Source: Campylobacterales bacterium (lineage in GTDB: Bacteria; Campylobacterota; Campylobacteria; Campylobacterales; Nitratiruptoraceae). From it: a stretch of DNA of 38,957 nucleotides. The number at the start of each line of letters is the position of its first letter. Position 1 is the first letter of the stretch. The notes under the pieces are model-generated. The model had not been told where the DNA came from. It made no database searches and saw only the letters and a program-made list of their open reading frames with translations. Where the stretch lies: NCBI GenBank assembly GCA_027065825.1, contig JAMONM010000058.1:1-38957 (forward strand), given 5' to 3'. This document shows positions 1,091-32,020 of this stretch, in pieces. A program made the translations under genes and the position numbers.

Positions 1091-1756
1091 TTGGGGAGTT
1101 TGGGACACTGCATAGGGATGTGCGGTGGATTCGTCATAGCCTACACTGCCGCCAAAATAGAACCGGCAACCCCAAGAGGCAGACAGTTCGTATATCATTT
1201 GGCTTATAATCTGGGCAGGATATCGTCCTATGCTTTAATAGGAGCTCTTTTTGGGTTTTTGGGCGGTATTTTGCTCATATCGCCTTTGACTCAAGGCATA
1301 TTGTATCTCGCGGTCGGTATATTTATGGTCCTGATGGGATTTTCGCTGCTGGGGAATTTGAAGTTTTTAAACTCGATAGAGGTCTCTTTGACCAGATACT
1401 CTTTTTTTAAGAGGCTCTTTTCCAAACTGATACACTCCAAATCGATGCCGAGTTTTTTCTTTTTGGGTATGCTAAACGGATTTTTGCCCTGCGGTCTGGT
1501 ATATTTTTTTGCGGCCAGCGCCGCCGCCACGGCCAGCCCTTTTTGGGGAGCCGTTGTTATGATCATATTTGGTCTCTCTACCGTTCCCGTTATGTTGGGT
1601 TTGGGAACTGTCGCCGGATTTTTGAAAAGTTCCCGTTTTAGAACGGTAATGATAAAACTCGCTTCCGTTGTGATCGTACTGTACGGGATCTATATAGTAT
1701 ACAAAGGCTACTGGTTCATATTCGATCCCGCCGCCTCTATCCATACCTGTCACTAA
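1091..1756 (+). CDS. TauE/DsbD-like integral membrane protein (PF13386-type), start uncertain
   Basis: The product is a multi-helix inner-membrane protein of about 221 residues or a little more. The conserved G-H-C-x-G-M-C-G-G motif at the N-terminus and the L-P-C-G-L-V-Y motif in the middle mark the cytochrome-c-biogenesis / sulfite-exporter-like transmembrane family. Members often sit with cbb3 oxidase genes and are suspected to act in copper or thiol handling for oxidase assembly, and here ccoNOQP lies 2.6 kb downstream. The given start is TTG at 1091. The frame is open back to 1004 and encodes a plausible first helix (about 1055-1090), but no ATG, GTG or TTG exists there. The true start may be ATA 1049 or ATT 1043 behind AAAAGG at 1037-1042, or the region may hold a frameshift. 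Confidence 0.75.
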   Translation: MGSLGHCIGMCGGFVIAYTAAKIEPATPRGRQFVYHLAYNLGRISSYALIGALFGFLGGILLISPLTQGILYLAVGIFMVLMGFSLLGNLKFLNSIEVSLTRYSFFKRLFSKLIHSKSMPSFFFLGMLNGFLPCGLVYFFAASAAATASPFWGAVVMIIFGLSTVPVMLGLGTVAGFLKSSRFRTVMIKLASVVIVLYGIYIVYKGYWFIFDPAASIHTCH

Positions 1757-1764
1757 GGATCGAG

Positions 1765-3459
1765 ATGACTCCCCTGTTTAGAAGGTACGATATCAAAAAC
1801 ATCGGAGAGATAAAGTTTAAAAATCTTCCTCTAAAGAGATTCAATATACTCTACGTGGAGAATTCGCCTCTCGATCAAAAGAGGGCGCTTCCTCTGCTTA
1901 GATCCTATGCCAAAAAGCTTTTTGTCGCATCGGACGGAGCCGAAGGGCTGAAGATTTTCAAAAACGAAAATATCGATATAGTGGTTTCGGATACCAAGAT
2001 GCCCGGACTTGACGGAATCGCTATGTTGAGGGCGATGAAAGAGATCAAAAGCGACATCGCCGTAATTGTTACCGGCGAAAAGAGCGCCGAATGTCTATAT
2101 GAGGCTATAAATCTGGGAGTGGATAAATATCTCCTAAAACCGGTGTGCGAAAAGGCGTTGAAACTGACGTTAGAGAGCGTAGAGACAAAACTATTTATGG
2201 AGAGAGCCAGAGAGTATAACCTGTATATGTTGCATCAGTACAAACACGCCATTGACAACTCCAACATAGTCTCCAAAACGGATATCAACGGGATTATAAC
2301 TTATGTCAACGAGGAGTTTTGCAACATATCCGGATATAAAAAAGAGGAACTGCTGGGGAAAAACCACAATATCGTCAGGCATCCGGACATACCAAAAGAG
2401 GTCTTTGAGCGGTTCTGGAAGACGATTCTGGCGAAAAAGATATGGAAAGGTACGGTAAAAAACAGGGCCAAGGACGGCAGTACCTTTTTTGTAAACACGA
2501 CGGTTATTCCGATAGTTGACTGGAACGGCAAGATAGTGGAGTTCGTGGCTATCAGGTACGATGTGACGAAAAACGTGCTTTTGCAGGAGAAACTGCAAAA
2601 AAAAGAGAGAGAGCTCGAAGCGCTGAACAAAGATCTCGAACGCAGAGTAGAAGAGCAGACTAAAAAATTAAGAGAACTGAATTTAACGCTCGAAAAGAGG
2701 ATCGAAAAGGAGGTGGAGAAAAATAGGCAAAAAGATAGAATGATGTTCCAGCAGGCCAGATTGGCTTCGCTGGGCGAAATGCTCGGAAATATCGCTCATC
2801 AGTGGAGGCAGCCCCTAATGGAGCTGGGTATTCTGTTTTATAAGATAAAAAGAGAGCTGACAAAAGAGAAAACGAATAAAAATATAGAGGAGCTCTATTC
2901 GAAAGGGGTTTCGATTTTGGAGAGGATGTCCCAGACGATTGTGGACTTTCAAAACTTTTTCAGACCGGACAAAAAAAGGGAGTTTTTCGACGTTTACGAG
3001 ACGGTCAAACACAGTATCGCCATAGTTGAGGGTAGTCTGAAAAAGAGCGGTATCAAAATAGAGGTCAAAAGAGAGGCCGATCTGAAAGTATACGGCTATA
3101 AAAATGAGTTTTCGCAGGTGATTCTAAATCTGATAAATAACGCGAAGGACGCTCTTAACCAAAACAGTTTGATAGAAAAAAGGATAGAGATTCTTCTGGG
3201 TATCGAGTCAAAAGATGGAGAAAAATTTGCGAAAATAGAGGTAATTGACAACGGGGGTGGCATAAAAGAGTCAATTTTGGATAAAATATTCGAACCCTAT
3301 TTTACAACGAAGCACAGCACTCAAGGAACCGGGCTGGGACTCTATATGTCCAAAATGATTATAGAGCAGAGTATGCACGGCTCTTTGGATGCCCAAAATT
3401 ACGCAAAAGGGGCCAAGTTTACGATACTGCTCCCTTTGCGGGAAGGAGAACCACGATGA
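1765..3459 (+). CDS. Sensor histidine kinase with N-terminal receiver and PAS domains
   Basis: This 564-residue protein has no membrane segment and so looks cytoplasmic. A receiver domain covers about residues 25-140, with phosphoacceptor D76, T103 and K125, but the acidic pocket reads E32-N33 instead of two acids. A PAS domain follows (about 160-270), then a coiled coil (about 270-325), an H-box with H345 in A-H-Q-W-R-Q-P, and an HATPase domain with N-L-I-N-N-A-K-D, D-N-G-G-G-I and G-T-G-L-G-L boxes. The ATG is preceded by TAAGGA at 1754-1759. The gene overlaps the response regulator by ATGA at 3456, so the two form a translationally coupled pair. The signal sensed is unknown. The position upstream of ccoN suggests control of respiration. 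Confidence 0.9.
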   Translation: MTPLFRRYDIKNIGEIKFKNLPLKRFNILYVENSPLDQKRALPLLRSYAKKLFVASDGAEGLKIFKNENIDIVVSDTKMPGLDGIAMLRAMKEIKSDIAVIVTGEKSAECLYEAINLGVDKYLLKPVCEKALKLTLESVETKLFMERAREYNLYMLHQYKHAIDNSNIVSKTDINGIITYVNEEFCNISGYKKEELLGKNHNIVRHPDIPKEVFERFWKTILAKKIWKGTVKNRAKDGSTFFVNTTVIPIVDWNGKIVEFVAIRYDVTKNVLLQEKLQKKERELEALNKDLERRVEEQTKKLRELNLTLEKRIEKEVEKNRQKDRMMFQQARLASLGEMLGNIAHQWRQPLMELGILFYKIKRELTKEKTNKNIEELYSKGVSILERMSQTIVDFQNFFRPDKKREFFDVYETVKHSIAIVEGSLKKSGIKIEVKREADLKVYGYKNEFSQVILNLINNAKDALNQNSLIEKRIEILLGIESKDGEKFAKIEVIDNGGGIKESILDKIFEPYFTTKHSTQGTGLGLYMSKMIIEQSMHGSLDAQNYAKGAKFTILLPLREGEPR

Positions 3460-4160
3460 GCAACTGCGGAGAAATATTAAAGGAGCTCTCTATACTTTAT
3501 GTGGAGGACGAGGATGAGATAAGGGAGATGCTAAAAGACGTACTGCAGGAGGATTTCAAGAGATTCGTAACTGCTCGCGACGGAAGAGAAGGACTTTCGA
3601 AATTTAAAGAGTCCCGTTTCGATATAGTTATAACGGATATAGAGATGCCCAAGATGGACGGACTGGAACTGGCGAAGGAGATAAGAGCCATATCCAAAGA
3701 GACTCCCGTTATACTTTTGACCGCCTATAGCGAAAAAGAGAGACTGTTCAAGGCTATCGACGTGGGCGTGAGTAAATATCTCGTAAAACCGTTTACTCCC
3801 GATAAGCTTCTTGAGGTGGTTTGCGAGATTGCGAAAGAGCATCTCGAAAGACACAGAATGGTAAATTTGGGAGATAGATTTATTTTCGATACGCGAAAGA
3901 GGGAGGTCTTGACGAAAGAGGGCGATGTCGTTCCTTTGACCAGAAAGGAGCTGAACTTTTTCGAACTGCTGGTAAAAAACAGAGATAGGGTCGTTACCGT
4001 GGAGGAGATTGAGAGCGTCATCTGGCGTGACGAAATCTTTACCGAAGCGGCACTGCGGGCGCTGGTAAAAAGAGTTAGACAAAAGACCGCTAAAGATCTG
4101 ATAAAAAACTTTCCCGGAATAGGTTATAAACTCTCTCTGCCTCAAGAGGAAAACGATTAA
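3456..4160 (+). CDS. OmpR-family response regulator
   Basis: This 234-residue response regulator has a receiver domain (about residues 10-125) with acidic pair E17/D18, phosphoacceptor D61, T89 and K111, all canonical. A winged-helix DNA-binding domain (about 138-230) follows and ends in the G-I-G-Y-K-L signature of OmpR/PhoB proteins. It is the presumed output partner of the kinase whose stop codon it overlaps by 4 bp. It is followed by a 233-bp AT-rich gap and then ccoN, a likely but unproven target. From memory, the homologous C. jejuni pair (Cj1491c/Cj1492c) sits in the same place. Confidence 0.93.
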   Translation: MSNCGEILKELSILYVEDEDEIREMLKDVLQEDFKRFVTARDGREGLSKFKESRFDIVITDIEMPKMDGLELAKEIRAISKETPVILLTAYSEKERLFKAIDVGVSKYLVKPFTPDKLLEVVCEIAKEHLERHRMVNLGDRFIFDTRKREVLTKEGDVVPLTRKELNFFELLVKNRDRVVTVEEIESVIWRDEIFTEAALRALVKRVRQKTAKDLIKNFPGIGYKLSLPQEEND

Positions 4161-4393: not shown

Positions 4394-5857
4394 ATGCAAA
4401 ACCCTGCAGTCGAGTATGATTATACCGTTGCGAAATGGTTCAGTTATCTGGCCATTTTGTTCGGTATATTGGGGATGGGCGTAGGCGTATTGATCGCGTT
4501 TCAGCTCGCGTTTCCCGAGTTGAACTACATCTTCGGTCAGTACAGCCTCTTTAGTAGACTAAGACCTATCCATACAAACGTAGTCGCGTATGGATTTACA
4601 CTCAGCGGGATCTGGGCCACGTGGTACTATGTGGGCCAAAGAGTCCTGAAAGTATCTCTAAAAGAGTCACCCTTTTTGAGCGGATTGGCCAAAGTACACT
4701 TTTGGCTCTATTTCGTAACCGCTCTGCTGGCGGTTGTCTCTCTTCTGTTTAGGGTTACCACTTCTAAAGAGTATGCCCAGTTCGAGTGGCCTTTGGATAT
4801 TCTGGTCGTTGTGATATGGGTAATGTGGGGAATCAGCATATTCGGTCTGATAGGACTCAGAAGAGAAAAGACCCTCTATATATCCATGTGGTATTATATA
4901 GCCACTTTCCTGGGCGTCGCCATGCTCTATCTGTTTAACAATATGGCCGTTCCTACATACTTGGTAACAGGTATGGGCGATCCGTTGCACTCTGTCTCTA
5001 TGTACGCGGGCAGCAATGACGCTTTGGTACAGTGGTGGTTCGGACACAATGCCGTTGCGTTTGTTTTTACAGTGCCTATTATTGCGATGATCTATTACTT
5101 CCTTCCGAAAGAGTCCGGTCAGCCGGTTTATTCGTATAAACTATCTCTTCTGTCTTTCTGGGGATTGATGTTTGTGTATCTGTGGGCCGGCGGGCACCAT
5201 TTGATCTACTCTACCGTTCCTGACTGGATGCAGACTATGGGTTCAATATTCTCGGTTATTTTGATTCTGCCTTCTTGGGGTAGTGCGCTGAACATGCTAC
5301 TGACCATGAAGGGAGAGTGGAGTCAGCTAAAAGACAGTCCGCTAATCAAATTTATGGTTTTGGCTTCCACTTTCTATATGTTGTCCACTCTCGAAGGGCC
5401 TATTCAGTCAATCAAATCTGTAAACGCCTTGGCGCACTTTACGGACTGGATTCCGGGACACGTACACGACGGAACTCTCGGATGGGTCGGATTTATGATA
5501 ATAGCGGCGATCATGCATATGGCGCCTAGATTCTTCAAAAGGGAAATATACAGCAAGAAGCTGTTGGAGGCTCAGTTCTGGCTACAGACTACGGGTATAG
5601 TTCTGTACTTCTCCAGCATGTGGATTGCAGGGATTACTCAGGGTATGATGTGGAGAGCGGTAGACCAGTACGGTAACCTGGCCTACTCTTTCATCGATAC
5701 GGTTACGGTTCTTCATCCGTACTATACTCTAAGGGCTATAGGCGGGTTGATGTATTTCATAGGTCTGTTCATGTGGGCCTACAACTTCTATAAAACTATG
5801 ACAGCGGCAAGACAAATTGAGGAAGAACCGAAATTTGCTTCACCGATGGCAGCATAA
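4394..5857 (+). CDS. ccoN: cbb3-type cytochrome c oxidase subunit I
   Basis: CcoN is the catalytic heme-copper subunit of the high-affinity oxidase, reducing O2 to water and pumping protons in the inner membrane. The 487 residues form about 12 transmembrane helices. Visible metal ligands are H60 (low-spin heme b), H218, H268 and H269 (CuB), and H356/H358 in the G-H-V-H-D-G motif (heme b3 and low-spin heme b). Length and ligand spacing match the family. It is the first gene of the cco operon, with AGGAGGT 4 nt before the ATG, and ccoO follows after 10 bp. Confidence 0.98.
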   Translation: MQNPAVEYDYTVAKWFSYLAILFGILGMGVGVLIAFQLAFPELNYIFGQYSLFSRLRPIHTNVVAYGFTLSGIWATWYYVGQRVLKVSLKESPFLSGLAKVHFWLYFVTALLAVVSLLFRVTTSKEYAQFEWPLDILVVVIWVMWGISIFGLIGLRREKTLYISMWYYIATFLGVAMLYLFNNMAVPTYLVTGMGDPLHSVSMYAGSNDALVQWWFGHNAVAFVFTVPIIAMIYYFLPKESGQPVYSYKLSLLSFWGLMFVYLWAGGHHLIYSTVPDWMQTMGSIFSVILILPSWGSALNMLLTMKGEWSQLKDSPLIKFMVLASTFYMLSTLEGPIQSIKSVNALAHFTDWIPGHVHDGTLGWVGFMIIAAIMHMAPRFFKREIYSKKLLEAQFWLQTTGIVLYFSSMWIAGITQGMMWRAVDQYGNLAYSFIDTVTVLHPYYTLRAIGGLMYFIGLFMWAYNFYKTMTAARQIEEEPKFASPMAA

Positions 5858-5867
5858 GGAGGCGTAG

Positions 5868-6563
5868 ATGTTCGGATGGTTGGAAAAAAATCCATTTTTC
5901 TTTGCGGTTGGAGTTTTCGTAGTGATCGCGTTTGCGGGGCTGATCGAAATCATTCCAGATTTCGCGCAGGCCTCCAGGCCGCTGGTTGGTACGAAACCGT
6001 ATTCGGTGTTGGAGCTGGCCGGTAGACAGGTATATATAAAAGATAGCTGCAATGCTTGCCACTCCCAGTTGATTAGACCTTTCAAATCTGAAACTGACAG
6101 ATACGGCATGTACTCTCTAACCGGAGAGTATGCTTATGATAGACCTTTCTTGTGGGGATCGAAAAGAACTGGGCCAGATCTTCACAGAGTCGGTAACTAC
6201 AGAACCAGCGACTGGCACGCTAACCATATGTGGGATCCTACCAGCGTAGTTCCCGGTTCGATCATGCCCGCTTATAAACATATGTTTACGAATGTTACCG
6301 ACCTTGAGACCGCTTTCGCGGAAGCTTTGACGGTAAAAAAAGTGTTTAACGTACCTTATGACAAAGATATCGACGGCGACGGTAAAATCGACGTGGTTCT
6401 CGGAGATTCTCCTGCGGATTTCGAGGCGGCAAAACAAAGAGCGCTTCAAGAGGCTCTCGTAATAGCCAAAGAGACCAAGAGAGAGGATCTGGTCAACATG
6501 GTAAAAGAGGGGAAAATACCGGAGATCGTAGCGCTGATAGCATATCTTAACAGGTTGAAATAG
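5868..6563 (+). CDS. ccoO: cbb3-type cytochrome c oxidase subunit II, mono-heme
   Basis: CcoO carries one c-type heme and passes electrons from CcoP to CcoN. An N-terminal membrane anchor (about residues 9-27) is followed by a periplasmic domain with C61-x-x-C64-H65 and the likely axial M133 in G-S-I-M-P-A-Y. Its 231 residues are a normal length. One oddity is the stretch at residues 165-178, which contains D-x-D-x-D-G-x-I-D and resembles a calcium-binding loop of EF-hand or dockerin type (see findings). The stop is 1 bp before ccoQ. Confidence 0.97.
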   Translation: MFGWLEKNPFFFAVGVFVVIAFAGLIEIIPDFAQASRPLVGTKPYSVLELAGRQVYIKDSCNACHSQLIRPFKSETDRYGMYSLTGEYAYDRPFLWGSKRTGPDLHRVGNYRTSDWHANHMWDPTSVVPGSIMPAYKHMFTNVTDLETAFAEALTVKKVFNVPYDKDIDGDGKIDVVLGDSPADFEAAKQRALQEALVIAKETKREDLVNMVKEGKIPEIVALIAYLNRLK

Positions 6564-6564
6564 T

Positions 6565-6783
6565 ATGGAGTTGAAAGAGATACAGGGCTATCTGTACTTC
6601 TTCTTCATACTCTTTTTGACGGCTATTCTGTACGGATACATCGTCCATCTGTACAGAAGTGAAAAAAAGGGGGAGAGAGATTACGAAAAATACGGCAAGA
6701 TGGCTCTGGACGACGAGCTGGACTCCAAGCCGGTAGAGCCTTTGGACGAAAACGACGTAAACGAAAAAAGGAGCGGTAAATGA
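6565..6783 (+). CDS. ccoQ: cbb3 oxidase small subunit CcoQ
   Basis: This 72-residue protein has one transmembrane helix (about residues 9-28) and a charged cytoplasmic tail rich in Glu, Asp and Lys. By size and position between ccoO and ccoP it is CcoQ, which stabilises the association of CcoP with the oxidase core. Its TGA overlaps the ccoP start (ATGA at 6780), so the two are translationally coupled. Confidence 0.9.
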
Positions 6784-7631
6784 ATTGGTTGAACGACAAT
6801 GTAAACCAGTTGGCCCTGCTCGGTGCTGCTGCGATACTTATTCTGACTATCGCGATATCCGCCAAATATTTCAAGGATATTAAAGAGGGCAAGAGCGAGG
6901 GTGAACTAAAGGATGAAAACTGGGACGGAATAGGCGAATATAAAAACAATTCGCCTATCGGCTGGTCTTTGGCTTTTATCGGAACTATCATCTGGGGAAT
7001 CTGGTACTGGCTGGCCGGCTATCCTCTCAACGCCTACTCCCAGATAGGAGAGTACAACGAGGAGGTTGCGGCGCATAACGCTAGATTTGAGAGCAAGTGG
7101 GCAAATCCTACCAAAGAGGATCTTCTCGGTATGGGTGAAGGCGTATATCTGGTTCAGTGTTCTCCTTGTCACGGTATTGACGCCACCGGTATCGAAGGCA
7201 AGGCTCAGGATTTGACCAAAAGATTGCTCAAAAAGAGCGTTCTTGCCGTTATAGAAGAGGGTTCGGCCGCGCTGGGCGATAAAGAGATGGACGGTCAGGG
7301 TAAATTTGGCTACTCTATGGGCGAAATGCCTCCGGGCCTTGTAAGCGGAGCTGACGCGGAGGCTGTTGCGGAATATGTAGCCAACGGCTTTAAAGGCAAC
7401 GAAAGAGGCGCCGAAGTTTACGCCAACGCGTGCGCCAGCTGTCACGGTCCCGACGGAAGAGGTATGGACGGTATGTCTCCAAACCTGAGAGAGTATGACG
7501 ATAAAATTATAGAAGCCGTTCTCGAGCACGGTAAGCAGTCCGTAATAGGTACTATGCCCAGCTTCAAAGGGATGCTGACCAAGGTTCAAGAAAGAGCCGT
7601 TGCGGCTTATATCCGCTCTTTGAGCGAGTAA
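6780..7631 (+). CDS. ccoP: cbb3-type cytochrome c oxidase subunit III, di-heme
   Basis: CcoP is the electron entry subunit. This form has two N-terminal transmembrane helices (about residues 8-28 and 62-80) and then two cytochrome c domains in the periplasm, with heme motifs C127-x-x-C130-H131 and C218-x-x-C221-H222. Likely axial methionines are M183 and M259. The 283 residues are typical of the two-helix type. The natural donor is probably a cytochrome c reduced by the bc1 complex encoded at 29327-32020. Confidence 0.97.
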
Positions 7632-7641
7632 GGAGAGTGCG

Positions 7642-7905
7642 ATGAACGAAAACAGATCACTATTTAGCCTACACGGATTGACGGGCTTTTTCATTGCGGT
7701 TGCGCTGCTGTTGTCCATTTTGGCGCTTTTGGTTACTGCCGCAATTAAAACTCAGCAGGCTACCGCCCAGCAGGCATACGAGATAAAGAATCCGCAAGAG
7801 ATCAAAAAATTCGGTCCTGACCGATCTAATGAGACTCACGTGGTCGTTTACGGGACTCCGGTAGGCGGCGATAAAATGCATAAATATCAGTTCGTGAACA
7901 AATAA
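7642..7905 (+). CDS. DUF4006 family small membrane protein in the cbb3 operon
   Basis: The 87-residue protein has a short N-terminal stretch, one transmembrane helix (about residues 14-36) and a polar tail with a conserved-looking V-V-Y-G-T-P-V-G segment. It matches what I recall of DUF4006, a family found next to ccoP in Campylobacterota. Function is unknown; a role in assembly or stability of the oxidase is inferred from position only. It starts 10 bp after ccoP behind AAGGAG. Confidence 0.75.
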   Translation: MNENRSLFSLHGLTGFFIAVALLLSILALLVTAAIKTQQATAQQAYEIKNPQEIKKFGPDRSNETHVVVYGTPVGGDKMHKYQFVNK

Positions 7906-7915
7906 GGAGGCCCCA

Positions 7916-8017
7916 ATGGTAGATAAACTGGAGATGATAATAAGCTTTCTGCTTCTTGGTACCGCGATCATCACTCTATGGGCGGTGGCTACGCCGTTTC
8001 ACGCATACGTAGGTTGA
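7916..8017 (+). CDS. 33-residue single-helix membrane peptide in the cbb3 operon
   Basis: ATG at 7916 follows a very good AAGGAGG at 7903-7909 with 6-nt spacing. The peptide has a charged start (MVDKLE), one hydrophobic helix (about residues 7-26) and a short tail ending in AYVG. Its TGA at 8015-8017 shares one base with the ATG of the next gene. The strong ribosome binding site, the tight coupling and the helix argue that it is a real gene despite its length. It may be an extra small oxidase subunit comparable to CcoQ, CcoM or CydX, but I recognise no named family. Confidence 0.65.
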   Translation: MVDKLEMIISFLLLGTAIITLWAVATPFHAYVG

Positions 8018-8625
8018 TGAGAGGTCTTTTGCTTTCGGGGTTTTTCGCCCCGATGCTCCTTTTTCTTTCCGCTATCGACGCGTTGGCTTCGTTCGTAGTG
8101 ATAAACGAGGATGTTCTGCCCAAAAAAACGGTGGACAAAATTGAGCAGATGGGTGCAGAGTTAAAGGACAAATGCGGCGTGTGGGTATATCTCGCCGCCA
8201 AAAAGAGTCTGGACAATGGCGATATTTTAGCTTTCGAAGAGAGATTGAGCAAAAACTTAAACACTCCCTTTATTTTACTCTCCATATCTGTAAATGATAA
8301 AAAAATAGATATCATAGCCAGTGACGAGGTAAAGGGGAAATTCGACAAAGAGCAGATTTTAAGTCCCCTGCCGTGGAGGGGTTCCATACTTCCTCTGATA
8401 ACGGCAAAATCGAAAGATCCTCACGCCAATATCGAAGCCGGGCTTCTAAACGGCTATGCGGAAATAGTTGAACAGGTCGCCGCCTCATGCGGAGTGGAGC
8501 TTGATTCGGCGATCGGCAACCAAAACAGAGTGGTCTTCGATATATTGAAGCTCTTTTTTTACGGAATAATAGCAATAGTGCTCGTTAGGATGATCTATGG
8601 CAGACTCAAAAAGAACCGAACGTAA
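8017..8625 (+). CDS. Periplasmic TPM-like protein with C-terminal membrane anchor
   Basis: The 202-residue protein has an N-terminal signal or anchor helix (about residues 3-24), a periplasmic domain and a C-terminal helix (about 178-196) followed by basic residues. The domain has the alternating pattern of the TPM fold: an L-P-K-K-T-V-D-K-I-E start, a strand with G-V-W-V-Y-L, then an F-I-L-L-S-I-S strand and a G-L-L-N-G-Y-A-E helix near the end. This assignment is by eye and uncertain. I chose ATG 8017 because it overlaps the previous stop; a longer frame exists to 7978. From memory, C. jejuni has a comparable gene (Cj1484c) in this place. A role in oxidase or heme protein assembly is inference. 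Confidence 0.65.
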   Translation: MRGLLLSGFFAPMLLFLSAIDALASFVVINEDVLPKKTVDKIEQMGAELKDKCGVWVYLAAKKSLDNGDILAFEERLSKNLNTPFILLSISVNDKKIDIIASDEVKGKFDKEQILSPLPWRGSILPLITAKSKDPHANIEAGLLNGYAEIVEQVAASCGVELDSAIGNQNRVVFDILKLFFYGIIAIVLVRMIYGRLKKNRT

Positions 8626-9088
8626 CTACTGGCCCCATTTCATAGTTGGGCTTGTCCTCTTTGCGGCTGTATTGGGAGTATGGACCATAAAAGCGGCCAT
8701 GGATAATCCCGTGGAGCTGGATAACAGTTACATGCTGGATTACCACAACGCGGATGAGGAGATCAACGAGATACTGAAAAAGCAAAGAGTATTCGACAAA
8801 AAGTATCGCGTAGATCTGAAAGAACGCAAGATTTCCGCAGGCGAAAATATTTTGACCATACTGGTTACCGATATAAACGGCAGTATGGTAAAAAACGCCG
8901 ACGTTACTGTGTTGGTTACGAGACCGGAAACTACTAAGCTGGATAAGAAACTAAAAGCCCGAAAAACTTCGCAAGGCTATCAAATAAAGGTGGATCTTGA
9001 AAAAGAGGGCAGATGGAATTTCGTGGTAAAAACCGAGATAGAAGAGGCGCAGGGATTTAAAACCTTCAAACTCTCCACATTGGAATGA
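8597..9088 (+). CDS. FixH-family protein, cbb3 oxidase assembly factor
   Basis: The 163-residue protein has one N-terminal transmembrane helix (about residues 13-34) and a periplasmic immunoglobulin-like domain. It fits the FixH/CcoH family, including the segment D-N-S-Y-M-L-D-Y, the beta-rich middle and the G-R-W-N-F-V-V strand near the end. FixH proteins are needed for cbb3 oxidase assembly. The gene overlaps the preceding one by 29 bp and the following addB by 4 bp (ATGA at 9085), so oxidase and repair genes appear to share one mRNA. No ccoG or ccoI copper ATPase gene is in the window. Confidence 0.8.
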   Translation: MADSKRTERNYWPHFIVGLVLFAAVLGVWTIKAAMDNPVELDNSYMLDYHNADEEINEILKKQRVFDKKYRVDLKERKISAGENILTILVTDINGSMVKNADVTVLVTRPETTKLDKKLKARKTSQGYQIKVDLEKEGRWNFVVKTEIEEAQGFKTFKLSTLE

Positions 9089-11394
9089 GACTTCGCGTAT
9101 ATCCTACCTCAAGAGCGATTAGAGCCGCAAAGGAGTCCTATAGATCCAAAAGGGCTCTGATTCCTTTGATGATGACCGCCGAAGAGTTTCAAAAACGAGC
9201 TCTCTATGTTCCTCAAAAGAGATACGCCACCGAGGATATCCAAAAACTGATTTTGAATGAGGCCGCCGATTTTTCGAGACTGAAAAAGCTTGGATTCGAG
9301 GATGATTTTTTTAAATTTTTCTATTCGTCCGAGCTTTTAATCTCCTTTTTCAAGGAGATATCGAGAGAGAGGGTTCGGTTCGAAAAGATAGCGGCCGGCG
9401 ACTATTATGCAGAATATAGCGAGCATACCGAAATATTAAAAGAGCTCTACGACTCTTACCGCGAGCTTCTCAAAAAGAGAGGTTTTTATGATGAAATTAC
9501 GTTGCCGACTCAATATAGATTGAACGATTCTTTTTTAAAAAGATTCGATTCGATAGAGATTGTTTTAGAAGGTATGTTGAGTCTGTTCGAGATAGAGATA
9601 TACGAACAGATTTCAAAAATTGTATCTTTAAAGATTGAATATACCCATCTTGATACGCTAAAAAAAATGTCACAACGATTTGGGCGGCTGGGAATCGAGT
9701 TGCCCAAAGAGGGAATATACGAGATCGATCTGAGGAAAAAAGAGGCTAAAATCGTAAAAAGTATAGATAAATCCGCAAATATTAAGTCCTACACTTTTCA
9801 AGCGAGGCTCCAGCAGGTTTTTTTCGTTAAAAACGCCGTTTTTGAGATGTTGAAAGCGGGTATCGATCCGCAAAAAATAGCCGTTGTTTTGCCAAAAGAG
9901 GACTTCAAGGAGTTTCTGAACTTTTTTGACGAGAGTAACGGATTCAATTTCGCTATGGGATTCGATTTTTCCAAAAGATCGCTCTATCTGCGTCTAAGAA
10001 ATCTTTATCTTTATCTCGTGGCCGAGCCTTATCGCAAAAGAAGATACAAAGAGCGGCTTCCGGATATTTTTTCGGAAAAAAATCTTCCGAAAAAGCTGGA
10101 TAGTTTCGAAAAGTTTAACGAACTCATAGAGGCGATGATTATCGACGACCCCAAAGAAGATACGGATATTTTAAAAGAGGAGCTTGCAGAGTTTAGATAT
10201 CTGTTTGAGCATATCAAAGAGCGATCTACCGCGAAACTGCTACATCTGTTTTTGGATCGTTTAGCTAGGAGAAAAATCGAAGATATTGGCGGCGGCCAGG
10301 TTACTGTAATCGGCATACTCGAAACCAGGGGAATGGAGTTTGAGGGACTGGTTATAGTGGATTTTAACGAAGATGTAGTACCAAAGCCTTTGCAAAAGGA
10401 TCTTTTTTTCGATTCGAGAGTGAGGGCGAGGGCCGATATGCCTACGAAAGAGGACAGATACGCCTTGCAGAGATATTTTTACGAACGCGCCATAAGCTGC
10501 GCCAAAACAGTATATATATCTTCGGTTGAAAACGAAAGTTCGTCTCCTTCGCGCTTTTTGAGGCGGCTGGGAGTAAAACCCAAAAGAGCCGGATTCGAAT
10601 TTGAAACGGTTAAAAAAGATAGATACGATACCGGCATAGTCATGGAATACGATTTTGCCGCAACCGGGATCTCCGCCAGCAGGCTTAAAACCTTTCTGCA
10701 GTGCAAAAGAAGATACTATTACTATTACATCCTGGAGCTTAAAGAGTTCAAAAAGAGCAAAGAGATGTCCGACAGAAGGGACATCGGCTCGTTTTTGCAC
10801 GAAGTGTTGAAAAGAGTATACGCAACGAACGATAGTTTTTTCGATTCGGAGGAACTGAAAAAAAGCTTTTTGAGCGTAGGCAGAAGTATGGTCAACAGGG
10901 AGGATCACTATCTGGCTCTATCTTTGGAGTTGTGGGCGCGAAAACTGACCCCTTTTTTTGAAAGAGAGTGCGCCGATTTCGAAAAAGGGTGGAGAGTCGC
11001 GTATCGTGAAAAAAAGATCGAAGTCGCGGTAAACGGAATGCGTTTGTACGGGATTGTGGATAGAATAGATAAAAAAGATAGTCTAATTAGGGTTTTTGAT
11101 TACAAAAGCTCCTTTAAAAAAGAGACGCTCGACTCGCAAAAAAGCGGGGATTACCAGCTGCCTTTTTACGCCGTATTGTGCGAATCGTTTTTTAAAGAGG
11201 AGCTCGAGGGGGTCTATGTCAAGGATCTTGAAAAGGGCGAGACTGTTCCGGTGGAGAATCTGGAAAAGAAGACCGAGGAGTTGATAGAGCTTTTGAATTC
11301 TCTAAAAGGTAGAAAGATCTACAGTTTCGATATGTGCGACGATCCGCAAAAGTGCAGATTCTGCCCATACAGTATCTTATGCAACAGAGAGTAG
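9085..11394 (+). CDS. addB: AddB-like subunit of the helicase-nuclease, iron-sulfur nuclease protein
   Basis: AddB partners AddA in double-strand break resection for recombination repair. The 769-residue protein is short for AddB (about 1160 in Bacillus). Its N-terminus lacks a Walker A motif, as expected for the inactive helicase arm in Campylobacterota. The C-terminal third is a PD-(D/E)XK nuclease, with V-F-D-Y-K-S-S at about residue 668. C539 and the trio C757-x2-C760-x5-C766 match the four cysteines that hold the 4Fe-4S cluster around the AddB nuclease domain. It starts inside the fixH stop and ends 2 bp before addA. Confidence 0.9.
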   Translation: MRLRVYPTSRAIRAAKESYRSKRALIPLMMTAEEFQKRALYVPQKRYATEDIQKLILNEAADFSRLKKLGFEDDFFKFFYSSELLISFFKEISRERVRFEKIAAGDYYAEYSEHTEILKELYDSYRELLKKRGFYDEITLPTQYRLNDSFLKRFDSIEIVLEGMLSLFEIEIYEQISKIVSLKIEYTHLDTLKKMSQRFGRLGIELPKEGIYEIDLRKKEAKIVKSIDKSANIKSYTFQARLQQVFFVKNAVFEMLKAGIDPQKIAVVLPKEDFKEFLNFFDESNGFNFAMGFDFSKRSLYLRLRNLYLYLVAEPYRKRRYKERLPDIFSEKNLPKKLDSFEKFNELIEAMIIDDPKEDTDILKEELAEFRYLFEHIKERSTAKLLHLFLDRLARRKIEDIGGGQVTVIGILETRGMEFEGLVIVDFNEDVVPKPLQKDLFFDSRVRARADMPTKEDRYALQRYFYERAISCAKTVYISSVENESSSPSRFLRRLGVKPKRAGFEFETVKKDRYDTGIVMEYDFAATGISASRLKTFLQCKRRYYYYYILELKEFKKSKEMSDRRDIGSFLHEVLKRVYATNDSFFDSEELKKSFLSVGRSMVNREDHYLALSLELWARKLTPFFERECADFEKGWRVAYREKKIEVAVNGMRLYGIVDRIDKKDSLIRVFDYKSSFKKETLDSQKSGDYQLPFYAVLCESFFKEELEGVYVKDLEKGETVPVENLEKKTEELIELLNSLKGRKIYSFDMCDDPQKCRFCPYSILCNRE

Positions 11395-29326: not shown

Positions 29327-29830
29327 ATGGCGGATCAGAAAAGACGCGACTTTATCGGTATGGTCTTTGGCGGTTTCGCTGCAGCCGGAGGAGCGGCGGC
29401 GCTATATGCCATGAAGAGAACATGGGATCCGTTGCCGAGCGTTATGGCGGCAGGTTTCACGACCGTCGATCTATCTCCGATGAAGCCAGGAGAGTTCAGA
29501 ACGGTTACGTGGAGGGGAAAACCGATTTTTATACTCAAAAAGGATCACACCGATCTTAAAAAGTGTGACGATGCCGATGTAAAGGTAGGCGAAGGAGACT
29601 ATCTGGTTAGAATCGGACTCTGTACCCACCTGGGATGTATTCCCGCATGGGAGCCCGGCAAACAGATTTTTAAATGCGCATGTCACGGTGGAGAGTTCGA
29701 CGCCTGCGGAGCAAACACCTTCGGTCCACCACCAAGACCTCTGGATATACCTCCGTTTAAAATCGAAGGAACCAAACTGGTACTCGGCGAAGAGGGACCT
29801 GAATACAAAAAGTTAGTCGGTAAAGCGTAA
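29327..29830 (+). CDS. petA: Ubiquinol/menaquinol-cytochrome c reductase, Rieske iron-sulfur subunit
   Basis: The 167-residue Rieske protein has a twin-arginine start (R-R-D-F-I-G) with an adjoining hydrophobic helix that serves as Tat signal and anchor. 2Fe-2S ligands are C99 and H101 (C-T-H-L-G-C) and C117 and H120 (C-A-C-H-G-G), with C104-C119 as the likely disulfide. It takes electrons from quinol and passes them to the cytochrome c1 subunit. It is first in the petABC operon with gaps of 10 bp and -4 bp. Confidence 0.96.
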   Translation: MADQKRRDFIGMVFGGFAAAGGAAALYAMKRTWDPLPSVMAAGFTTVDLSPMKPGEFRTVTWRGKPIFILKKDHTDLKKCDDADVKVGEGDYLVRIGLCTHLGCIPAWEPGKQIFKCACHGGEFDACGANTFGPPPRPLDIPPFKIEGTKLVLGEEGPEYKKLVGKA

Positions 29831-29840
29831 GGAGCGGGAT

Positions 29841-31097
29841 ATGGCACAGTTCGAGAAAGCTAACAGCGTTTACGAGTGGCTCGATCAGAGACTTGCTCTG
29901 ACGAAGCTCACCAAGGTATTGATGACGGAGTATTGGATTCCGAAAAACATCAACTTCCTCTGGGCGATGGGCGTGGTTTTGATGACCATGTTCAAAATAC
30001 TGCTCATTTCGGGAATCTTTCTTTTGATGTATTACAAGCCGGATACGAAACTGGCTTTTGATAGCGTTAACTACACCATCATGCAAGAGGTCTGGTTCGG
30101 ATGGCTTTGGAGACATATGCACGGTGTCGCCGCCTCGGTGGTGTTTTTGGTGATCTATATCCATATGTTTACGGGTATATATTACGGCTCTTACAAAAGA
30201 GGCAGAGAGATGATTTGGCTCAGCGGTATGCTGCTGTTTGTTACCTTTAGCGCCGAGGCCTTCAGCGGATATATGCTTCCTTGGGGACAGATGAGCTATT
30301 GGGCCGCTCAGGTTATTACAAATCTTTTCGGCGGAATTCCTTTTATAGGTGACGAGCTGGTTATCTGGATCAGAGGTAACTTCTATGTGGCAGACGCCAC
30401 TTTGACCAGATTCTTTATGTTGCACGTCCTGCTTTTGCCTTTGGTTATCATGGGAATTATAGGACTCCATTTTTATAGCCTCAGAATTCCGCACGTAAAC
30501 AATCAAGAGGGCGAAGAGATAGATTTCGACGCCGAAGCGGAAAAATTTAAAGCCGGTAGAAAAGCCGAGGCAAAAGTTATTCCTTTTTGGCCGGTCTTTA
30601 TCAGCAAGGACCTCTTTGTTCTGGGCGTATTCATGATTTTCTATTTCTATCTGGTCTTTTACCATTACAATTTCGCGATGGATCCGATCAACTTCGATCC
30701 GGCCAATCCTATGAAAACTCCGCCGCACATATATCCTGAGTGGTACTTCCTGTGGTCTTACGAAGTTCTAAGAGGATTCTTCTTTGACGTAGGTCCGCTT
30801 TCGGCAATGGATATTGGTCTGATGGCTTTCGGTATCGCCAACGTCATTTTCTTCCTTATGCCTTGGCTGGACAGATCGCCCGTAGTCGCTCCTGCTCACA
30901 AGAGAGGCCCCTTCTTTATCTGGTTTTGGGTTCTTCTTGTAGATATGATCGTTTTGACCATATGGGGTAAGCTACCTCCTACGGGTATCAACGCCTGGAT
31001 AGGCTTTTTCGCGTCAATTACGTTTTTGGGGCTGCTACTGGTAGCGCTGCCGATGATTACCAAACAAGAGGCTAAAAGAGCAGGAGGTGCCGCATGA
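29841..31097 (+). CDS. petB: bc1 complex cytochrome b subunit
   Basis: The 418-residue integral membrane protein carries both b hemes and the two quinone sites. Features include R-H-M-H-G-V-A-A and the distal helix with M-L-H-V-L-L-L-P (heme ligands on helices II and IV), L-P-W-G-Q-M-S-Y-W-A-A (Qo region) and P-P-H-I-Y-P-E-W-Y-F-L (PEWY motif, ef loop). It is a single full-length cytochrome b, not split as in b6f. It overlaps petC by 4 bp. Confidence 0.97.
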   Translation: MAQFEKANSVYEWLDQRLALTKLTKVLMTEYWIPKNINFLWAMGVVLMTMFKILLISGIFLLMYYKPDTKLAFDSVNYTIMQEVWFGWLWRHMHGVAASVVFLVIYIHMFTGIYYGSYKRGREMIWLSGMLLFVTFSAEAFSGYMLPWGQMSYWAAQVITNLFGGIPFIGDELVIWIRGNFYVADATLTRFFMLHVLLLPLVIMGIIGLHFYSLRIPHVNNQEGEEIDFDAEAEKFKAGRKAEAKVIPFWPVFISKDLFVLGVFMIFYFYLVFYHYNFAMDPINFDPANPMKTPPHIYPEWYFLWSYEVLRGFFFDVGPLSAMDIGLMAFGIANVIFFLMPWLDRSPVVAPAHKRGPFFIWFWVLLVDMIVLTIWGKLPPTGINAWIGFFASITFLGLLLVALPMITKQEAKRAGGAA

Positions 31098-32020
31098 GAG
31101 AGCTTAAAATTCTGGGTGTAGTGATACTATTTACCTTGATTACCTATTGGGGAGTCGAGCCGTTCGCCCACTCCCAGATGCATGCGCACCATGAGCCTGC
31201 TACTTTCAAATACGAAGATATAACGCCTTTGGGGAAAAAGGGCAATCCTCAAAGGGGTGCCGAAATTTTCGCGAACGCCGGCTGTACGGGCTGCCACTCC
31301 GTAAAGTCTCAGAATCTGCCCGCTCCTATGGATCCGGTAGCGGCCAGCGCCAGCTACGGGGTTAATCCTCCGGATTTGAGCGACGCGGGTGCTCTGTACG
31401 ATCCGAAATATCTTGCCGCAGTTATAAAAAATCCCGCTCACGCGATGAAGCTGGATCATAAATTCAACGAAAACAGACCTTTTCCTATGCCTAACTTTTA
31501 CGGCGTAGGCGGCGATCTGGATCAAGAGGTAGCCGACATAGTGGCCTATTTGCAATCTATAGCGCCTAAAGAGGTAGAGCCCAAAGAGGCTTTCGTTAAC
31601 GCCTGCGGCAGATGTCACGATATGAAGTATGACAACTGGTACGTAATCGGGCCCAAGCCAAAAATGGATACCGAACTGGAAGAGGCACAGTTTAATCTTA
31701 AACACGCCGAGTATCAGGAAAACCTGAAAAAGTATCTGGGAACCAATCCTCCGGATCTATCTATGTATATCAGATCCAGAGGCCACGAGTATATCAGGGA
31801 TTTCATCGAAGATCCTCAAAAGATTCTCCACGGAACCGCAATGCCTAGAGTCGGTTTGACCGAAGAGGCTACGGAAAAAGTGGTTACCTATATGGAGAAC
31901 GTGGGTGACAGAAAGAAAGAGAAAAGAGAGTCTTTGGGACCTCTGGTACTACTCTATTTCATCATTTTCGCTCTTCTTGCCTACGCGTGGAAGCAGAAGG
32001 TCTGGAGAGACGTACACTAA
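31094..32020 (+). CDS. petC: bc1 complex diheme cytochrome c subunit
   Basis: This 308-residue c-type cytochrome has an N-terminal signal or anchor helix, two heme sites (C64-x-x-C67-H68 and C171-x-x-C174-H175) and a C-terminal transmembrane helix (about residues 280-300). The diheme form is characteristic of Campylobacterota bc1 complexes, which lack the classic mono-heme c1. It would donate electrons to soluble cytochrome c or directly to CcoP of the cbb3 oxidase. Confidence 0.95.
   Translation: MRELKILGVVILFTLITYWGVEPFAHSQMHAHHEPATFKYEDITPLGKKGNPQRGAEIFANAGCTGCHSVKSQNLPAPMDPVAASASYGVNPPDLSDAGALYDPKYLAAVIKNPAHAMKLDHKFNENRPFPMPNFYGVGGDLDQEVADIVAYLQSIAPKEVEPKEAFVNACGRCHDMKYDNWYVIGPKPKMDTELEEAQFNLKHAEYQENLKKYLGTNPPDLSMYIRSRGHEYIRDFIEDPQKILHGTAMPRVGLTEEATEKVVTYMENVGDRKKEKRESLGPLVLLYFIIFALLAYAWKQKVWRDVH

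Follow-up and report, generated by a model that had tools for sequence, protein, structure and literature searches.

A phylum-wide ccoXYZ–ccoH cassette bound to the cbb3 oxidase operon of Campylobacterota

The four genes that follow ccoNOQP in the stretch of DNA analysed here (38,957 nucleotides from a Campylobacterales bacterium, hereafter the window), namely ccoX, ccoY, ccoZ and ccoH, belong to a cassette that is a phylum-wide, oxidase-bound trait of Campylobacterota. The cassette very probably constitutes the accessory part of a single oxidase operon, in which CcoX and CcoY would be helices of the oxidase or of an assembly intermediate, and CcoZ and CcoH a pair facing the periplasm, possibly in contact with the Qcr (bc) complex. 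The enzyme concerned, cbb3, is the high-affinity oxidase of Campylobacterota in low oxygen. The functional idea itself, that these genes encode additional subunits of the oxidase or factors for its assembly, was put forward in the original prediction and is right in substance, but it had already been published in 2021 for C. jejuni, where full activity depends on the orthologue of each of the four genes (PMC8267372). What is new here is the phylum-wide distribution of the cassette, the insertion of ccoG into it, the behaviour of ccoZ and ccoH as a unit, and a caution about the comparison of CcoZ with MSMEG_4692.

According to open reading frames and family models, the plus strand of the window carries ccoNOQP at 4394–7631, followed by ccoX, ccoY, ccoZ, ccoH and an addB-like gene. 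The genes ccoN (4394–5857), encoding subunit I of the cbb3 oxidase, ccoO (5868–6563) and ccoQ (6565–6783) match TIGR00780 (E = 1.6e-209), TIGR00781 (E = 5.8e-78) and TIGR02736 (E = 7e-25), respectively, and ccoP (6780–7631) has FixP_N and cytochrome c domains, its match to TIGR00782 (E = 5e-38) lying under the curated cut-off. The cassette proper consists of ccoX (7642–7905, 87 aa), a DUF4006 gene (PF13179, E = 6.1e-27); ccoY (7916–8017, 33 aa), which encodes a single membrane helix and was recognized by its position and conservation, being of the same length as Cj1485; ccoZ (8017–8625, 202 aa), which matches PF04536 (E = 2.5e-05, above the cut-off); and ccoH, or FixH (8597–9088, 163 aa; PF05751, E = 3.9e-12). 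The addB-like gene (9085–11394; PDDEXK_1 and TIGR02786, the latter at E = 6.5e-18 and below the cut-off) overlaps ccoH by 4 bp and is not part of the oxidase system. The order of genes, from ccoNOQP through DUF4006, the 33-residue helix and the anchored periplasmic TPM protein to FixH, is as originally described. By contrast, the description of the cassette as following ccoP without a gap, with its genes coupled by overlaps of 1–29 bp, holds in part: of the four junctions between ccoP and ccoH, just two are overlaps (ccoY/ccoZ by 1 bp and ccoZ/ccoH by 29 bp), whereas ccoP/ccoX and ccoX/ccoY are separated by 10-bp gaps with good ribosome-binding sites of the AAGGAG type. A mechanical list of open reading frames places the start of ccoZ at 7978. 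However, the true start is likely the ATG at 8017, because it yields a one-base TGATG stop/start overlap with ccoY, a signal-like initial segment and a protein of 202 aa, compared with the 200 residues published for Cj1484. The window also contains a qcrABC operon (Rieske protein, cytochrome b and cytochrome c) at 29327–32020; it lies downstream of the cassette, at a distance of about 20 kb.

In C. jejuni, Garg et al. (2021) deleted the orthologues at the matching places and gave the names ccoX, ccoY and ccoZ to the genes between ccoP and ccoH (PMC8267372). In their account, cj1486c (DUF4006, ccoX) and cj1483c (ccoH) are essential for oxidase activity, cj1485c (ccoY, 33 residues) and cj1484c (ccoZ, TPM, 200 residues) are important for it, and deletion of cj1482c, the gene at the addB-like place, leaves it unaffected (PMC8267372). 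With these phenotypes in print, the original view of FixH as the sole protein with a known role is outdated. Cj1486–Cj1483 are arranged identically between ccoNOQP and the cj1482c place. Their products are likewise a protein with DUF4006, a helix of 33 residues, a TPM protein some 200 aa long and a homologue of CcoH; judged by order and family, the window genes are orthologues of Cj1486–Cj1483. CcoX of the window differs from that of C. jejuni by a longer C-terminal tail, G.PVGGD..HKY, and is otherwise of the same kind. The need for each gene for full cbb3 activity has been shown for C. jejuni only and would extend to the window by orthology. Among open-access publications, which leave subscription journals mostly uncovered, we found no later biological paper on CcoXYZ or CcoZ, and Garg et al. 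was, by title, the only one on the oxidase among those concerning Cj1484, Cj1485 or Cj1486. The questions that these authors left unanswered, namely the role of CcoXYZ and whether Qcr and the oxidase form a supercomplex (PMC8267372), are those on which the natural experiments described below bear: ccoG within the cassette, ccoZ–ccoH behind qcrABC, and genomes with Qcr but no oxidase.

Of 249 genomes from the phylum, 237 encode DUF4006, and 11 of the 12 genomes without it also lack ccoN. In the twelfth (G230), ccoNOQP sits at the edge of a contig of 8,843 bases, with ccoZ, ccoH and addB together on another contig. Similarly, CcoH is present in 381 of 397 genomes; 15 of the 16 lacking it have no ccoN, and in the remaining one (G394) ccoN is cut by a contig end. 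For the analysis of gene neighbourhoods, 127 DUF4006 loci were chosen from the 237 genomes for family spread, so that the presence of ccoX is by construction and the neighbours are what is tested. The N-O-Q-P order is intact in all 129 loci (128 fetched ones and the window), and ccoX follows ccoP in 128 of them, the exception being G230 with its contig end. CcoY, 29–41 aa long, occurs in 128 of 128 loci, 104 of which were recognized by profile and 24 by positional search; the profile missed 25 of the 129 loci (24 with ccoX, all recovered by the positional search, and the contig end of G230). Finally, ccoZ and ccoH follow in 126 of 128 loci, with G218 and G245 as exceptions. Across these 129 loci the cassette genes are neither absent nor scattered in most relatives, in line with the original proposal. 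Moreover, pooled dN/dS values of 0.11 for ccoX (28 pairs), 0.13 for ccoY (28 independent pairs), 0.17 for ccoZ (10 pairs) and 0.18 for ccoH (18 pairs) show that the cassette genes, including the 33-codon ccoY, are under purifying selection. Since gene order is conserved phylum-wide and all four genes are constrained in this way, the linkage is more than chance. A search started from a 15-sequence alignment of CcoX yielded 321 relatives, and the titles of all 80 that were kept name Campylobacterota, the search pattern itself having been built from Campylobacterota. Two of the records (L230 and L242) are titled Helicobacter cetorum and bear isolate names suggestive of a cave metagenome; their species names look doubtful.

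Linkage alone is no proof of a role, as addB, which is unrelated in function, comes after ccoH in at least 84 of the 129 loci, and the cassette genes could in principle be mere passengers that share the operon by position and contribute nothing to the oxidase. This explanation is extremely improbable: the deletion phenotypes published for C. jejuni contradict it there (PMC8267372), and more widely ccoX, like ccoH, goes missing wherever ccoN does.

CcoX scores 93.8 bits against DUF4006, far above the curated cut-off of 22, and is modelled as one N-terminal membrane helix (residues 11–42) with a short C-terminal tail (pLDDT 77.7); its conserved positions are F8, G12, G15, Q38 and Y46. A Foldseek search with this model found no similar structure at E up to 0.001, a result that says little for a one-helix model at pLDDT 78, and the single sequence gave nothing among PDB sequences at E up to 1. 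The CcoX profile hit only helices of calcium channels and MerF in the PDB (best E = 0.033), which we judged to be chance helix matches. CcoY has no Pfam or NCBIfam match, and its profile found nothing at E up to 10 in the PDB, a query of 33 positions being so short that similarity to a solved cbb3 small subunit may have escaped it. Other small proteins of terminal oxidases are known, such as CcoM (36 aa) of the Pseudomonas stutzeri cbb3 enzyme (PMC10433244) and CioY (34 aa) of C. jejuni CioAB (PMC11955535), but a sequence link of either to CcoY was not seen. By analogy with CcoM, a subunit of Pseudomonas cbb3, and with CydX/CioY of bd-type oxidases, the single helices of CcoX and CcoY probably pack against CcoNOQP or an assembly intermediate, which they would stabilize. 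In C. jejuni, mass spectrometry of a blue-native band detected CcoX, CcoZ and CcoH alongside CcoNOP and QcrABC, CcoY being missing from the nine proteins listed there; the same bands contained hundreds of proteins, and the supercomplex is called unconfirmed by the authors (PMC8267372).

In seven loci (L042, L043, L045, L046, L094, L100 and L106), a gene of ccoG length is inserted between ccoX and ccoY. Two of these genes were compared with the CcoG model TIGR02745 and matched it at E = 1.8e-151 and 1.5e-153, and the other five were assigned by the likeness of their translations. The insertion occurs in four of the six fetched relatives from the family of the window and in three of four from family f11. 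The window itself has no ccoG or ccoI near the cassette, as originally noted, yet those four relatives carry ccoG inside it; in the host genome of the window, ccoG is located on contig C70, and ccoS adjoins a P-type ATPase gene on contig C56. Directly after this genome's ccoG lies a gene for a 71-aa protein that resembles a single helix (L169:2347–2562). The extended CcoX tail, G.PVGGD..HKY (window positions 7830–7902), with its conserved His and Tyr, is present in 11 of 128 CcoX proteins, seven from family f1 and four from family f11, and in no others; the window thus has it in common with 10 of the 127 other CcoX examined. We considered whether the tail goes with ccoG, which is found in just seven of the 11 tail-bearing loci, and rejected the association because shared descent or transfer explains the distribution as well.

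CcoG, whose gene is inserted in the cassette in those seven loci, is listed for C. jejuni as a cupric reductase for oxidase biogenesis (PMC8267372), and FixH/CcoH of Rhodobacter has been termed an assembly factor (PMC7876108); both would fit a cassette that serves as a factory for copper-centre or haem assembly, its products staying outside the finished enzyme. Such a factory is nevertheless unlikely, given that added copper rescued none of the ccoX, ccoY, ccoZ and ccoH mutants of C. jejuni, that CcoX and CcoH of this species co-migrate with CcoO and CcoP in gels (PMC8267372), and that a chain of the FixH family is retained in a solved cbb3 structure (9g6b). The same PDB entry surfaced with our own CcoH, which scores 46.8 bits against PF05751 (cut-off 23): a CcoH profile built from 38 of 77 chosen sequences matched chain 9g6b_C (‘FixH family protein’) with an E value of 0.76; this hit ranked last of three weak ones and serves as a lead only.

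The distribution of the genes shows that the cassette is made up of two units, ccoNOQP-X-(ccoG)-Y on the one hand and the ccoZ–ccoH pair on the other. Within the pair, the two genes overlap in 100 of 126 loci, a count that depends on the rule (nearness and ribosome-binding site) by which gene starts were set in the survey. The two informative REARRANGEMENTS are G218 and G245, in which ccoZ and ccoH are not behind ccoY and are found elsewhere, still together. In G245 (L177:2558–7463), the place after ccoY is empty, and ccoZ–ccoH lies directly behind the genes for the Rieske protein, QcrB and QcrC, on the same strand and about 120 bases downstream. The other 13 of the 14 genomes of this genus keep the standard cassette, so the position next to qcr represents one relocation event. 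The arrangement in G245 is suggestive of a link between ccoZ–ccoH and Qcr, no more.

The CcoZ alignment comprised 98 sequences, as five of the 103 chosen (L109, L128, L151, L162 and L163) were left out for their unusual length. The AlphaFold2 model based on it (pLDDT 92.1) shows one short helix at the N-terminus, then the TPM domain and a further helix at the C-terminus (residues 169–201), and reads as a protein with a signal-like N-terminus, a periplasmic TPM domain and a membrane anchor provided by helix 169–201. At the sequence level, the score against PF04536 is 24.7 bits (cut-off 22.1), just 45 of the 98 CcoZ proteins match at E of 0.01, and searches of PDB sequences with the single CcoZ and with its profile gave nothing at E up to 1. 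At the level of structure, the best matches are BA41 (Z = 16.4), PG_0361 (16.3), a TPM domain from Rhodothermus (16.0), TLP18.3 (15.1) and Psb32 (14.6). The bcc-aa3 subunit of M. tuberculosis follows at Z = 12.6 and that of M. smegmatis at 12.0–12.3, the latter via chains 6hwh_O, 6adq_J and 8ovc_V, which we take to be MSMEG_4692. Like CcoZ, MSMEG_4692, which belongs to the III2-IV2 supercomplex of mycobacteria, and the corresponding M. tuberculosis protein (8hcr_J) have the TPM fold, over 109–112 residues, and a respiratory oxidase as partner; however, their identity to CcoZ is 12–16%, and the mycobacterial oxidase is of aa3 type (title of 8hcr), not cbb3. Psb32/TLP18.3 (8c7i, 3ptj, 3pvh; Z = 14.6–15.1) likewise combine this fold with a role as extracytoplasmic partner of an energy-converting membrane complex, photosystem II, but that is a different complex, and the two functions need not be of common descent. 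The match is therefore not specific to MSMEG_4692 (Z = 12.0–12.6, versus 14.6–16.4 for other TPM proteins), and the published likeness, as judged from the model, is real but is that of the general TPM fold. Since CcoZ fits other TPM proteins better, this resemblance alone is no argument for a supercomplex.

The CcoZ–CcoH pair could instead serve mainly as a tether of Qcr to the oxidase, in the manner of MSMEG_4692, with CcoX and CcoY as separate oxidase subunits. In C. jejuni, CcoZ was found in the Qcr-containing band and was 10-fold depleted in the band without QcrB and QcrC (PMC8267372); the structure of an engineered Rhodobacter bc1–cbb3 supercomplex tentatively locates the CcoH helix where CIII and CIV meet, adjacent to CcoN TMH9 (PMC7876108). 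These data, the position of ccoZ–ccoH behind qcrABC in G245 and the TPM fold shared with MSMEG_4692 (Z about 12) speak for a tether. The last point is offset by the lack of specificity of the fold, with BA41, PG_0361, TLP18.3 and Psb32 all scoring higher (Z = 14.6–16.4). Furthermore, the ascorbate/TMPD oxidase assay bypasses Qcr. Loss of ccoZ nonetheless lowers ascorbate/TMPD oxidase activity in C. jejuni, whose QcrB, in addition, is noted to be without a long C-terminal extension (PMC8267372). The lowered activity would be unexpected for a pure Qcr tether and makes a purely tethering CcoZ less likely. On balance, a tether as the main function is a tentative alternative that we consider somewhat improbable.

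The distribution of CcoZ bears on the same question. QcrB is present in 55 of 62 genomes, four of which have no ccoN; CcoZ is absent from three of these four, and the fourth has just a distant, generic TPM protein. So CcoZ follows the oxidase and not Qcr, as it is missing from Qcr-bearing genomes without ccoN. In the other direction, each of the 51 genomes tested that carry the oxidase has Qcr as well, and the dependence of CcoZ on one or the other is thus inseparable there. CcoZ-like matches in two oxidase-less genomes, G105 (31 bits) and G040 (35 bits), were rejected as orthologues; they are TPM-like proteins of 283–287 aa, the DNA retrieved around them carries no cco gene, and the adjoining gene encodes a lipoprotein that is presumably LemA-like.

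Returning to the accessory part of a single oxidase operon, CcoZ (TPM domain and C-terminal anchor) and CcoH (N-terminal anchor and periplasmic domain) would act together on the periplasmic face, with CcoH sitting on CcoN and CcoZ beside CcoH, possibly at the contact with the Qcr complex. The stronger proposal, that the two serve throughout the phylum as a dedicated periplasmic clamp joining the cbb3 oxidase to Qcr, is doubtful. If it were true, TPM domains would have been recruited separately by three energy-converting systems, as accessory parts of photosystem II, of the bcc-aa3 supercomplex of actinobacteria and of the oxidase of Campylobacterota.

Two further observations concern the surroundings of the operon. 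Contig C73 of the host genome (L037, L040) gives weak, split matches to the ccoN model, which probably stem from another protein of the haem-copper or nitric-oxide-reductase type. Upstream of ccoN in the window, positions 1091–4160 encode a DsbD_2 (PF13386) membrane protein, an apparent sensor kinase and an apparent response regulator; genes related to this set are found on 40–42 of the 129 loci, most fetched loci ending too early upstream to tell.
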